The translations under genes and the position numbers were made by a program. A stretch of DNA of 64,000 bases from Halodesulfovibrio sp. GTDB lineage: Bacteria > Desulfobacterota > Desulfovibrionia > Desulfovibrionales > Desulfovibrionaceae. The stretch spans positions 1 through 64,000 of the forward strand of contig NZ_JADMLB010000059.1 of NCBI RefSeq assembly GCF_015482765.1, given 5' to 3'. This document shows positions 954 through 62,128 of this stretch, piece by piece (within the stretch, counting starts at the first letter, position 1; the number at the start of each line of letters is the position of its first letter). The notes under the pieces are model-generated. The model saw nothing but the letters and a program-made list of their open reading frames with translations, was not told where the DNA came from and did not search any database.

Positions 954-1499
954 TTGAACTTGAATGTATGAAGTGACCGAGCGCGCTTCAGGGATTCGCT
1001 TCGCGTGCTGGATAATTTTTTGTTTTTCTCTTGTAGAGCCAACAATGCCCGTCAGAACAATATTGCATTGTACAACATCGATAGAGATATTTGTTGACCA
1101 GACTTCTTTGTCACCAACGAGATTAGTTTTGAGCTTGGTGCTCATAGAAACGTTGTCAGTGGTTCCGCAGAAATCTTTTTTGTTTTTTAACAAGAGATAC
1201 GGAATAACACTTCGTACACCTTTTACGTTGCGTGCTAAAGAAATGGCGATGCTCCGCTCTGTAAGTGAGTCTACTTCGCCTATGAGGTATACTTTTCCGT
1301 TATATGTCTTAACGGAGATGCCCATCGAGCTTACATGATCACTTTTTACAAGTTTATTTAGAACAGATGCTGAGATGACAGTGTCTGAATACTGTTCGCT
1401 AATGTTGCGTTCATCAACTGTGGCATTATATATGGCACAGCCGGATAGGGTGTAGCAAAGTGTAATAATTGCTGTAATACAGAATAGCTTCTTTAGCAT
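951..1499 (-). CDS. BON-domain outer-membrane lipoprotein (DolP/YraP-like)
   Basis: The 182-residue product starts with a short basic and hydrophobic signal sequence ending in the lipobox LSGC (Cys about residue 21), so it should be a lipid-anchored envelope protein. Two consecutive BON domains follow (about 40-105 and 110-180), each with the pattern of a short helix, a strand with G-x-V-x-L-x-G, then a helix and V-x-x-V. This architecture matches DolP (YraP), which binds phospholipid and supports outer-membrane integrity, and more loosely OsmY. Here it is a single-gene unit upstream of rarA on the same strand, with a 27-base gap to rarA. The family assignment is firm; the exact role is inferred. 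Confidence 0.82.
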   Translation of the reverse strand: MLKKLFCITAIITLCYTLSGCAIYNATVDERNISEQYSDTVISASVLNKLVKSDHVSSMGISVKTYNGKVYLIGEVDSLTERSIAISLARNVKGVRSVIPYLLLKNKKDFCGTTDNVSMSTKLKTNLVGDKEVWSTNISIDVVQCNIVLTGIVGSTREKQKIIQHAKRIPEARSVTSYIQVQ

Positions 1500-1526
1500 G
1501 TGTGTCTCTCCTGATGCTATAGGGAA

Positions 1527-2768
1527 TTAACGGAAGCTTTTTCTGGCTCGAGCAAGCCACGCAGTCAGACGTGGTTCAACGCCTTGCTCTCGCTGCTGGT
1601 AAAACCTGCGCCCTGCGAGATCATCTGGAAGGTATTGCTGGGGAACATAACCTTCCGGGTAGTTATGTGGATACAGGTAGCCTTTTCCGTATCCCCATTC
1701 CTTTTGAAGCTTGGTTGATGGATTTCGCAAATGTAAAGGGACAGGCTTTCGCCCATGAGTTTTTATTTCTTGTGCAGCTGCCAGATACGCTGCATAGGTT
1801 GAATTGCTCTTAGGAGCAAGTGCTAAGTAGGTTACAGTTTCGGCTAGAGGGATGAATCCTTCCGGCATTCCGACAAATTCAACAGCCTGCTGACATGATA
1901 CAGCCAGCGGCAATGCATTCGGGTCTGCCAATCCTACATCCTCTGACGCGGAAAGAATCAGCCTGCGGCATACAAAGCGAGGGTCTTCTCCCCCCTCAAG
2001 TAAGCTGGCAAGGTAGTATAGTGCAGCATCAACATCACTGCCGCGAATTGATTTGATCATTGCAGATGCGAGTTCATAATGGCTGTCGCCATTTTTATCA
2101 TGACGCGCGATCACGTCTGGCAATGCTGCTTTAAGTTTGTCGGGTTCGCGTGATTCCGGCGGAAGTTGGGCAATATATTCTACGAGGTTGAGCATGGAAC
2201 GCGCATCACCATGGGCAATCCCTGCAACCATTTCATAGACACTTTCATCTAACTCAACACCGCACGCTTCGGCACCTTTTTGAGCGAGAGTTTGTAATGA
2301 AGTGTTTGGAAGAGGTTTGAGTTTTAGCGTGTGGAGTCTGGACAGAAGTTGTCTTGTAACACTGAAAGACGGGTTTTCAGTTGTGGTTGCAATCAGCGTT
2401 ATTTCGCCTGACTCAAGAATAGGAAGAAAGAAGTCTTGTTGGGCCTTGGAGAAACGGTGTAGTTCGTCGAGCACAAGTACTTCTACGCCTTTCAACGATT
2501 TACGGAGTTGTGTAAGTCCAGCCTCAGGTGCGCTTACTCTAAGCCATTTCAAGCCGGTATGTTTTGCAAGCAATAAAGCCAGCGTTGATTTTCCGCATCC
2601 CGGAGGGCCAAACAAGAGCAAGCTTGGAAGACGGGTCGCTTTGGTCAGAGCTGTGATTCGAGCAGAAAGATGTTCCTGTCCTGAAAATTCTTCAAAAGAA
2701 TTAGGGCGGATTTTGTCAGCAAGAGGCTGTTTTGCCTCCATAGACATTTCTGTACTAACGCTCAGCAT
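1527..2768 (-). CDS. rarA: Replication-associated recombination protein RarA/MgsA (AAA+ ATPase)
   Basis: RarA is a clamp-loader-like AAA+ ATPase acting at stalled replication forks. The protein (413 residues from the chosen start) has Walker A GPPGCGKST, Walker B with the VLDELHR variant, the sensor region TTENPSF, and the C-terminal MgsA/RarA tetramerisation region containing GLADPNAL and the late HLRNPSTKLQKEWGYGKGY block. I chose the ATG at 2768 because AAGGTG lies nine bases upstream. A GTG at 2780 and an ATG at 2741 are alternatives; the last starts directly at the conserved core MEAKQPLADKIRP. It overlaps the end of rsmE by 14 bases and is probably co-transcribed with it. Confidence 0.93.
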   Translation of the reverse strand: MLSVSTEMSMEAKQPLADKIRPNSFEEFSGQEHLSARITALTKATRLPSLLLFGPPGCGKSTLALLLAKHTGLKWLRVSAPEAGLTQLRKSLKGVEVLVLDELHRFSKAQQDFFLPILESGEITLIATTTENPSFSVTRQLLSRLHTLKLKPLPNTSLQTLAQKGAEACGVELDESVYEMVAGIAHGDARSMLNLVEYIAQLPPESREPDKLKAALPDVIARHDKNGDSHYELASAMIKSIRGSDVDAALYYLASLLEGGEDPRFVCRRLILSASEDVGLADPNALPLAVSCQQAVEFVGMPEGFIPLAETVTYLALAPKSNSTYAAYLAAAQEIKTHGRKPVPLHLRNPSTKLQKEWGYGKGYLYPHNYPEGYVPQQYLPDDLAGRRFYQQREQGVEPRLTAWLARARKSFR

Positions 2769-41066: not shown

Positions 41067-41717
41067 ATGACTACTCCAGATGGTGCAATTTTACAGCGTG
41101 ATAAAGAAACCTATGCTATTGTTCCTCGTACTCCGGCTGGTATGTTGACTCCAGATGTTCTCGAAACTATCGCGTACGTCTGTCGTAAGTATGAAGTACC
41201 TATTATTAAAATTACTTCTGGTCAGCGTATGGCCCTTGTAGGAATGAAAAAGGAGCAGGTTGAACCTATCTGGGAAGAGCTCAAGTGGAAAGTTGGCCGT
41301 GCGACAGAGCTTTGTGTTCACTACGTTCAGGCGTGTCCAGGTACTGCAGTCTGTAAGCTCGGCGTACAGGATTCTCTCGGCTTTGGTCTTGAAATTGAAG
41401 AATCTATGTACGGCAAGCCATTCCCTGCTAAAGTTAAGTTTGGTATTTCCGGTTGCCCAATGTGCTGTGGCGAAAGCCGTGTTCGTGACATCGGTCTCGT
41501 AGGAACCAAAAAAGGTTGGGAAGTAATTGTAGGCGGTAACTCCGGCCCTCGTCCTCGTATTGGTGATACTCTTGCTAAGGATTTAACCCAGGACGAAGCA
41601 CAGGCTCTTATTGAGAAGTTCCTTGATTACTACCGTGAAAACTCAGGAAAACGTGTGCGTATTTCTAAGTTCGTAGAAAAGGAAGGAATTGAGGCAATTA
41701 AAGAAGCTATTATGTAG
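41067..41717 (+). CDS. Assimilatory-type small sulfite reductase (siroheme, 4Fe-4S)
   Basis: The 216-residue protein resembles the low-molecular-weight, low-spin sulfite reductase described from Desulfovibrio. It has a single copy of the nitrite/sulfite reductase fold, with the siroheme/[4Fe-4S] ligands in CPGTAVCKLGVQDS and GCPMCCGESRVRD. Upstream, TSGQRMALVGM matches the substrate-side half-domain. It is about a third to half the length of dissimilatory DsrA or DsrB, and lacks their ferredoxin insert. It is transcribed alone from its own long upstream region. Activity would be six-electron reduction of sulfite; its true cellular role in sulfate reducers remains debated. Confidence 0.9.
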   Translation: MTTPDGAILQRDKETYAIVPRTPAGMLTPDVLETIAYVCRKYEVPIIKITSGQRMALVGMKKEQVEPIWEELKWKVGRATELCVHYVQACPGTAVCKLGVQDSLGFGLEIEESMYGKPFPAKVKFGISGCPMCCGESRVRDIGLVGTKKGWEVIVGGNSGPRPRIGDTLAKDLTQDEAQALIEKFLDYYRENSGKRVRISKFVEKEGIEAIKEAIM

Positions 41718-60134: not shown

Positions 60135-60200
60135 TTAGACGACAAGGCTAGTAGGGCGGTCTATTCTAAAAATAGAATGTTGTAAGACGGTGTGAAATGA

Positions 60201-60229
60201 AAAGGTGGAGCTTAGCTCCACCTTTTTTT
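60201..60229. terminator. Bidirectional intrinsic terminator between the ferredoxin gene and bcp
   Basis: The stem AAAGGTGGAG / CTCCACCTTT with a CTTAG loop is followed by Ts on the plus strand and overlaps the bcp stop codon. Confidence 0.85.
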
Positions 60230-60701
60230 ATGCGTTATTACGTAAGTATTCCAGAATGGTTTCGGCATGCTCAGCAGTTTTAAATTTATTGAAAACCTGC
60301 TCGATGACGCCATCTTTCCCGACAAGAAAGCTTATGCGGTGTATTCCGTCATACGTTTTTCCCATAAATTTTTTTTCTCCCCAAACTCCAAATTTTTCAG
60401 CAATTTCGTGGTTTTCGTCAGAAAGAATTGAAAATGCTAAGAGTTGTTTTTGAGAAAATTTTTCTAATTTTTTGATGGGGTCGGGGCTTATCCCTAAAAT
60501 AGCAATTCCCATAGAGTTGAAAGCGTCAAGGTTGTCACGCAACCCTACTGCTTGCTTTGTTCACCCCGGGGTAGATGCTTTAGGGTAGAAATAGACAAGA
60601 ACTTTTTCTTTATTCTTGAAGTCCGCTAAACATACTTCTTCACCTGCTTGATCCATGAGGCAGAAGTCTGGAGCGATGTCGCCTTGCTGTAAAGGATTCA
60701 T
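60228..60701 (-). CDS. bcp: Selenocysteine-containing Bcp-type peroxiredoxin (UGA read as Sec47)
   Basis: Bcp peroxiredoxins reduce hydrogen peroxide and organic peroxides through a peroxidatic thiol. The gene encodes 157 residues if the single in-frame UGA at 60561-60563 is read as selenocysteine. Before it runs MNPLQQGDIAPDFCL and KVLVYFYPKASTPG; after it come TKQAVGLRDN, GISPDPIKKLEKF, EKFGVWGEKKFMGKTYDG and IHRISFLVGKDG. These match E. coli Bcp (156 residues) end to end, and the UGA replaces exactly the catalytic Cys of PGCT. The resolving Cys, normally five residues later, is Val52. A SECIS-like hairpin follows the UGA. AAGGAGTTGCC precedes the ATG at 60701. A simple stop or error is unlikely, because both flanks are intact. 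Selenoprotein assignment is inference from sequence. Confidence 0.88.
60528..60546 (-). promoter_or_regulatory. bSECIS-like hairpin in the bcp message
   Basis: On the minus strand, arms AGGGTTG / CAACCTT form seven base pairs (one G-U) around the five-base loop CGTGA. The loop starts 21 bases after the UGA, within the 16-37 base range, and its second base is G, as required by the bacterial SECIS model. It would recruit SelB with Sec-tRNA. Confidence 0.78.
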
Positions 60702-60868
60702 GGCAACTCCTTATCAAAAAGATACATGTTTCTGGATGGTTCACTATACTAATGTCTATAGCTTATTAATCCATCGCTGTGTGGTATTATGGAATACTAA
60801 GCTATTTGCTTTTATATTTGTAAAACTTGTTTGAGTAAATTTTCATTGAGTAAAAAACAGGTGTCAGC

Positions 60869-62128
60869 ATGAGTGATTGGCAAGTGAAGAAAGTTGTAAT
60901 TTTGATGCGTCATGGAGTTCGTGCCCCTAATCAAACTATGGAACAGCTCTCTGCATGGTCAAAAAGAACATGGCCTGTCTGGTCTGTTTCTCCAGGGAAC
61001 TTAACCGAAAGAGGGCGGGAACTTTTGCTGACATTGTGGCGTAGGCTTGCTCAAGAAGAACCATACAGGAATATTCTTTTTGATGGAAAAGGGCGTGTAA
61101 AAGAAGACGATATCTATGTACATGCCGATGTTGACGAACGCACGCAGTCAAGTGCTGCTGCATTACTGGATGCGATTTCACCTCAAAAAAAACTTGGATA
61201 TTACGTCTTAGAGGGGAAAGAAAGAGATCCACTATATCACCCCATTCAGGGAGATGTGTGTCATGCTTCCCGTGAAAAGGATGAGGCCGAAATTGTAGAG
61301 CTTGTTGAAACAACGTTTTCTGTTCTTGCCGAAAAATACTCCGAACAACTTTACTTTGTAAATAATTTGCTTGGACCAATACCCGACGACACTTGTAGAA
61401 CATATGGTGTAGATTCTAGCTGCCAGTTACTAGATTTAACCCCACGGGTTAACTTCTCAAATAGTGGCAGAACCGTAAGTCTACGTGGCGCACTGGGAAT
61501 CAAGGCGACACTTATTCAAAATTGGCTTCTGGAATATGCAGAATGGCCGGATAGACTTCCCGGATGGGGGCGGATTACCCCTGAAATTCTTTCAGGATTG
61601 CTGATTGCTCGTGCAGATATTTTTAACTGTATAAATCGGGAAAACAGATACGCACGAGATAGAGGGAGTGCCATTTTATTGGAAATGATGCAGGCTCTTA
61701 TGGGTACGGGTGAAAGGGCAGGCAATTCAGCTAAATTCATTGTTTATGTTGGGCATGATACAAATATTGCACACATCAGTCAGACTCTAGGATTGAACTG
61801 GGATTTGAAAGGATTCGCCTTCAATGACATTCCTCCAGCTGGTTTGTTACAGTTTACATTATGGGAAAGAGCGTCAGGAGGGCAAAAAGTGACTGCTGAT
61901 TTCATTTCCCAACCTATGTCCGTCCTCCGAAGCAGGGAGCCAGATCGCGTCAGCCCATACGTATCCATTATTCCTTTAGAGTTTTCTACAAATCAAAACG
62001 CTCAAAGAGCTTTCGCTGTTTCGTTGGAAACATTTGAGCGGAGCGTTTTGCAATGCATTAATTCGGAATGTCTTCCTGTTCGTGATGGAGCGAGAGCCTT
62101 GGTGAAGCGTACAAGCTTTACAAGTTAA
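60869..62128 (+). CDS. Histidine acid phosphatase family protein without signal peptide
   Basis: The 419-residue protein is a branch-2 histidine phosphatase like AppA phytase and glucose-1-phosphatase of E. coli. The catalytic motif is VVILMRHGVRAPNQT (His15), and the proton-donor motif VYVGHDTNIAHISQTLGLNW appears near residue 293. VHADVDERTQSSA and GNLTERGREL also match. Most relatives are exported, but this protein begins MSDWQVKKVVILMRHG with no signal sequence, and an in-frame TAA lies just upstream, so it appears cytoplasmic. Substrate is unknown. Confidence 0.85.
   Translation: MSDWQVKKVVILMRHGVRAPNQTMEQLSAWSKRTWPVWSVSPGNLTERGRELLLTLWRRLAQEEPYRNILFDGKGRVKEDDIYVHADVDERTQSSAAALLDAISPQKKLGYYVLEGKERDPLYHPIQGDVCHASREKDEAEIVELVETTFSVLAEKYSEQLYFVNNLLGPIPDDTCRTYGVDSSCQLLDLTPRVNFSNSGRTVSLRGALGIKATLIQNWLLEYAEWPDRLPGWGRITPEILSGLLIARADIFNCINRENRYARDRGSAILLEMMQALMGTGERAGNSAKFIVYVGHDTNIAHISQTLGLNWDLKGFAFNDIPPAGLLQFTLWERASGGQKVTADFISQPMSVLRSREPDRVSPYVSIIPLEFSTNQNAQRAFAVSLETFERSVLQCINSECLPVRDGARALVKRTSFTS

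Follow-up and report, generated by a model that had tools for sequence, protein, structure and literature searches.

Does the UGA that interrupts an otherwise intact peroxiredoxin gene in a Halodesulfovibrio genome encode selenocysteine (Sec), as an earlier note on this DNA proposed, or does it simply end translation? We examined the gene within the window, the whole 64,000-nucleotide stretch of DNA that was analysed. The best overall explanation, to which we assign a probability of roughly 95%, is a Sec-containing Bcp/PrxQ peroxiredoxin in which Sec would be inserted at codon 47. The features on which the argument draws are as follows.

60228–60701, minus strand: Bcp/PrxQ-type peroxiredoxin gene, predicted selenoprotein, 157 aa with Sec47 (frame, profiles, orthologs, predicted fold)
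60561–60563, minus strand: UGA codon, predicted to be read as selenocysteine (residue 47, peroxidatic position; TGA in 5/5 orthologs, Cys in 29 aligned homologs)
60529–60545, minus strand: apical hairpin of a predicted bacterial SECIS, with six pairs and a CGUGA loop at a spacing of 21 nt from the UGA (pair counts, covariation, recoding control)
60707–60712, minus strand: Shine-Dalgarno-like AAGGAG ahead of the ATG, identical in 5/5 orthologs
60200–60224, minus strand: terminator-like inverted repeat and T run directly 3′ of the TAA (read from the sequence)

The frame runs on the minus strand from the ATG at 60701 to the TAA at 60228 with a TGA at 60563–60561 (codon 47) as its sole in-frame stop, exactly as the earlier note had described it. 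Ordinary ORF calling was said to recover only a fragment starting at TTG 60542, and the ORF lister indeed returns just that piece (60542 to 60228, 104 aa). Against NF006960, the Bcp equivalog model (cut-off 140), the 157-aa read-through product reaches 246.1 bits, and the match covers residues 1–156. Its Pfam match is AhpC-TSA, and the PrxU model NF040737 gives 33.3 bits, under the cut-off of 270. The residue aligned with codon 47 is Cys in every one of 29 gammaproteobacterial homologs (the 29 of 80 fetched that were aligned), which places the UGA at the peroxidatic position as the note had it; all 80 fetched homologs have the peroxidatic Cys at position 47. A fold prediction with Cys modelled in place of Sec47 has a mean pLDDT of 95.4, and Bcp/PrxQ structures are among the best PDB matches both by sequence and by fold. 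Inverted repeats with a T run also follow four of the five orthologs within the 120 bases examined, the exception being L015.

The source genome (3.71 Mb, 81 contigs, completeness 99.97) encodes DsrA (642 bits), which marks the organism by gene content as a sulfate- or sulfite-reducing bacterium. A weaker match to the DsrA model (47 bits, below the cut-off) lies in a 220-aa frame of the window at 41121–41516, perhaps a small sulfite-reductase-like protein. The earlier note had named the absence of selA, selB, selC or selD as grounds for rejecting its proposal; all four are present. The tRNA-Sec scores 84.6 bits (cut-off 47) and is called tRNA-SeC by ARAGORN, and SelB (389 bits), SelA (622) and SelD (341) each exceed their cut-offs. 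A second tRNA-Sec match above the cut-off (47.6 bits) was discarded, being a tRNA-Ser by ARAGORN. The SelD gene (L012, 1501–2427; G000:C45:96765–97691) itself has one in-frame TGA, and its product is probably a Sec-containing SelD, a known form that appears in a table of PMC1794560.

Bcp orthologs occur in five of ten genomes of the genus, the window’s included, and the four others share 74–81% protein identity with the window’s Bcp. All five have TGA at codon 47 without any further in-frame stop; Cys-to-UGA matches in relatives, which the note had proposed to seek, are thus represented by TGA at the same codon in four other genomes. Three members of the genus (G143, G151 and G152) carry a Cys-Bcp at 40–41% identity and no Sec-Bcp, and two (G076 and G150) show weaker matches only (E 1e-7 and 7e-6). 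Among the ten genomes the Sec-Bcp (five) and the approximately 40%-identical Cys-Bcp (three) are never found together, and two genomes have neither. SelA is found in 10/10 genomes of the genus, which rules against the idea that the members without the Sec-Bcp lack the Sec trait. The order NadE, molybdopterin oxidoreductase, ACT protein, Bcp and M23 peptidase is conserved around all five orthologs, with GltD-like and Fe-S proteins near Bcp in four of the five loci (not L158) and an acid phosphatase likewise in four (not L159; all tblastn, 1e-10). The phosphatase gene of the window (60869–62128), AppA-like and of the histidine acid type, is divergent from the Sec-Bcp gene and has 55–56% identity in three congeners. 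The same five genomes also carry one TGA in a second, AhpC/TSA-like protein (L129, L130, L131, L132 and L135), which reads GGWUPYC at L135 and GGWCPYC in a congener’s L137.

The fragment returned by the ORF lister is what a dead Bcp gene with an inherited premature stop would also give. This possibility is highly improbable: the frame is intact, with no second stop, in all five orthologs, which share one gene neighbourhood, and the sequence after the TGA is under purifying selection, with dN/dS of 0.035–0.11 in the nine ortholog pairs, out of ten, that allowed its computation. Upstream of the TGA, saturation makes dS unusable in nine of ten pairs, and dN is a low 0.07–0.25. Fourfold sites are 30–47% identical between orthologs, which together with the saturated dS indicates that the TGA has been kept while neutral sites were largely rewritten, the synonymous sites being near saturation and the protein constrained. 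Codon use is also conserved next to the TGA in two stretches chosen post hoc: 4/5 invariant-residue sites are codon-identical in codons 52–57, versus 16/90 elsewhere (Fisher p 0.0065), and 5/9 in codons 48–61, versus 15/86 elsewhere (p 0.018).

An in-frame TTG lies 18 bases past the TGA codon, where translation might restart to give a C-terminal protein without Sec; the UGA might equally encode another residue through Trp suppression or a code change. Against both stand the Cys aligned at position 47 in the 29 homologs, the Sec machinery of the genome, the AAGGAG ahead of ATG 60701 in all five orthologs, and the constraint on the first 46 codons as well (the same low dN over saturated dS), and we give these readings scarcely any credence, no more than we give a dead gene. 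A sequencing or assembly error that turned TGC or TGT into TGA has a negligible probability given the same codon in four other genomes at 74–81% protein identity, and five separate genomes with TGA here and no other stop make chance very unlikely too.

In a scan of 395 genomes across the phylum, the pattern FYP(K/R)xxTxGU turned up at 16 places in 14 genomes. L150 among these is a chance match in a frame without Bcp, and the remaining 15 Sec-Bcp places in 13 genomes, the window’s included and L141 readable in part, leave the Sec-Bcp thinly spread over the phylum. In the order to which a Shewanella genome belongs, 394 genomes yield two places with this pattern. L162 is again a chance match in a frame without Bcp; L163 (genome G556, 1393–1854, plus strand) encodes a complete Bcp whose peroxidatic codon is TGA, and we treat it as a candidate gammaproteobacterial Sec-Bcp.

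Counted from the U of the UGA, bases 19–24 of the predicted hairpin pair with bases 30–35 around a CG(U/G)GA loop. All six pairs form in 5/5 orthologs, which share ancestry and so do not give independent counts, and in none of the 80 gammaproteobacterial or 27 same-order Cys homologs; the best gammaproteobacterial Cys homolog reaches five pairs at this offset (one of 80). Elsewhere in the phylum, L148 alone among 14 further Sec-Bcp places forms six pairs at this offset, and the SECIS of the other 13, if any, is therefore placed otherwise. The pair count of the 80 and 27 homologs and the test of the SECIS model took in, by the motif used in the script, nine of these 14 places.

The published bacterial SECIS model calls for a stem of 4–16 bp, a loop of 3–9 nt with G in its first two positions, a spacing of 16–37 nt and an energy of −7.5 kcal/mol or lower (PMC13188914). 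The window’s gene fits this model with 8 pairs, loop CGUGA, spacing 21 and energy −12.0. Three of the four points hold for all five orthologs, and the energy limit is reached by four of five in 48 nt and by five of five in 57 nt; the ortholog L124, at −6.5 in 48 nt, reaches it only in the longer stretch. The model in 48 nt also fits 9/9 of the other Sec-Bcps tried, together with 25/80 and 16/27 of the Cys homologs (41/107), and such a loose model by itself proves little; we rejected it as proof for this reason. In a control with codon weights taken from the five genes, 1, 9, 0, 6 and 17 of 300 random synonymous recodings of the five orthologs reach the observed energy, and 17, 33, 25, 24 and 20 of 300 form all six pairs, so that the encoded residues themselves lean towards the stem. 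Folding of the whole stretch gives modest z-scores (−0.4 to −3.9 for the five orthologs, −0.39 for 61 nt), a competing structure is slightly better than the hairpin in a single fold of L017, and Rfam recognises no SECIS family in either the window or the gene alone.

The stem is invariant within the five orthologs, so covariation rests on the addition of L163 (5/6 pairs) and L148, which were picked partly for the hairpin and whose figures hence favour it. In this set 97.6% of 42 cells pair (0/500 shuffles as high), three of the six pairs are changed on both sides (1/500) and six further pair types appear (12/500), and slid versions of the hairpin are at most 54.8% paired. With the Sec machinery, the TGA in 5/5 orthologs and this hairpin after the codon, the selenocysteine reading advanced in the earlier note gains support, and the sequence comparisons strongly support the view that the UGA of codon 47 encodes Sec.

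P40, T44, position 47 and R122 are invariant in the structure alignment (29 of the 80 gammaproteobacterial homologs). We take P40, T44, U47 and R122 to be the Bcp catalytic set of Pro, Thr, peroxidatic Cys/Sec and Arg. The PxxxTxxU part of this set is given in PMC13188914. Position 52, five residues after the peroxidatic one and the usual site of the resolving Cys, is Val or Gln in 5/5 orthologs, and neither L163 nor any of the 14 other Sec places has Cys there. It also lacks Cys in 21/80 gammaproteobacterial and 25/27 same-order Cys homologs; the resolving Cys is therefore not family-defining, and we claim no link between Sec and its loss. Exactly two other cysteines occur in the five orthologs, Cys14 and Cys24, both invariant and placed by the predicted model in neighbouring strands (14–17 and 22–24). 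A motif count finds them together in 4/80 gammaproteobacterial and 1/27 same-order homologs.

From these residues and the gene content of the genome, we infer the following route for Sec insertion, peroxidase activity and recycling. SelD would supply selenophosphate with which SelA makes Sec-tRNA-Sec, and SelB, docked on the hairpin that lies immediately downstream of the UGA and loaded with this tRNA, would place Sec at codon 47. Within the pocket formed by P40-x-x-x-T44-x-x-U47 and R122, the selenol would then reduce hydrogen peroxide or alkyl hydroperoxides and become a selenenic acid. As Val or Gln stands in place of the usual resolving Cys52, this acid would most likely return to the selenol by direct reduction, with thioredoxin or some other small thiol as the reductant; that Cys14 or Cys24 resolves it instead is a guess.

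In the genome collection, the 80 best of 571 relatives all bear gammaproteobacterial names, and a search of viral contigs for Bcp relatives found none. The first tree (86 rows, catalytic column masked) took in 42 of these 80 gammaproteobacterial proteins (one in three, together with those that lack the resolving Cys), all 27 same-order Cys-Bcps and 12 of the 14 other Sec rows. For the trees, L141, which is partly read as N, gave way to L153 (another genome, same search), and L154 (a near copy of L140), L149 (a copy of L014) and L036 (partial) were also left out. The five orthologs form one clade (100/97) that groups with, inside or beside, the 42 gammaproteobacterial Cys-Bcps (100/99, these rows having been chosen as nearest to the window’s protein) and apart from the 12 Sec-Bcps. 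AU tests, with groups named after the tree was seen, reject both a grouping of the five with the other Sec-Bcps nearest to them (three rows, p 2.05e-7) and a grouping with the genus’s own Cys-Bcps (p 2.15e-48). A placement of the Sec-Bcp with gammaproteobacterial Bcps, to which the 100/99 grouping points, is less expected.

L163 adjoins dapA (370 bits, cut-off 206) and an AI-2E-transporter-like gene that falls below every cut-off and is presumably PerM-like. Of the 80 gammaproteobacterial loci, 70 have a relative of the first neighbour and 47 a relative of the second within the stretch fetched around bcp, and L163 thus looks like the native bcp of G556. Among 40 genomes searched around G556, the TGA is found in G556 only, and the nearest Cys relative of L163 there has 65% identity. 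L163 shares with the window’s Sec-Bcp the TGA codon, the 21-nt spacing, the CGUGA loop and 5/6 pairs, and its stem carries a compensatory change relative to the window’s. It differs in its position beside dapA and in being closer to some gammaproteobacterial Cys-Bcps (up to 65%); its identity to the five orthologs is 51–55%. In the second tree (62/80 gammaproteobacterial, 7/27 same-order Cys and 3/14 Sec rows), which came with warnings of long branches and unsettled bootstraps, a common clade of L163 and the five orthologs is neither recovered nor rejected (AU p 0.33).

These placements suggest that the Bcp gene came into the lineage from the gammaproteobacterial branch. Arrival as a Cys gene that was later converted to Sec seems more likely than arrival of a gene that already encoded Sec, and the idea that the change must fall inside the genus is weakened by L163. 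L163 and the five orthologs may descend from a single Sec gene that passed between the groups, or Cys may have been converted to Sec twice; the identities incline us to the latter. It is a good deal less probable, in our estimate, that a ready-made Sec gene crossed between the gammaproteobacteria and the genus together with a SECIS hairpin embedded in its coding region, replaced the native Cys-Bcp and cycles through Cys14 and Cys24 in place of the usual resolving Cys.

The first Sec peroxiredoxin enzyme was reportedly that of Eubacterium acidaminophilum (Soehling, 2001). A table of PMC9312934 assigns the Sec peroxiredoxin to COG1225 (Bcp) with a TxxU motif, PMC1088965 gives 43 such sequences, and Sec-Bcp with TxxU is thus already described as a class. 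Five Cys-to-Sec events are counted for Prx in PMC1794560, and PMC5109826 names a Sec peroxiredoxin in another family of sulfate reducers, in Desulfococcus multivorans. A weak search of the literature on selenoproteins in Halodesulfovibrio and Desulfovibrionales found no description of the window’s Sec-Bcp. As far as these limited searches go, the gammaproteobacterial placement, the pattern of replacement across the genus and the presence of two further, invariant cysteines are new. This gene is a clear example of one that ordinary ORF calling truncates to a fragment, and with it the Sec-Bcps gain a branch that groups in the tree with gammaproteobacterial Cys-Bcps. Since the Sec form can be compared with Cys relatives that are fairly close, and a covarying hairpin is available as well, the locus lends itself as a natural test case for the conversion of a Cys peroxiredoxin into a selenoenzyme; the same comparison bears on what recycles the Sec enzyme and on whether a SECIS is able to move along with its gene.

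With the published Sec-Bcp class, the predicted protein shares the Bcp/PrxQ family, the PxxxTxxU motif, Sec at the peroxidatic position and a hairpin after the UGA. It differs from other Sec-Bcps in that the closest relatives found for it are gammaproteobacterial Cys-Bcps, in a tree that compared 12 Sec-Bcps of the phylum and not those named in the papers. The gammaproteobacterial Bcp (NF006960, thioredoxin-dependent thiol peroxidase) resembles it in length, in catalytic residues and in sequence (57–64% identity), but carries Cys at position 47 (80/80 fetched) and, in 59/80, the resolving Cys52 that is absent from the window’s Bcp.
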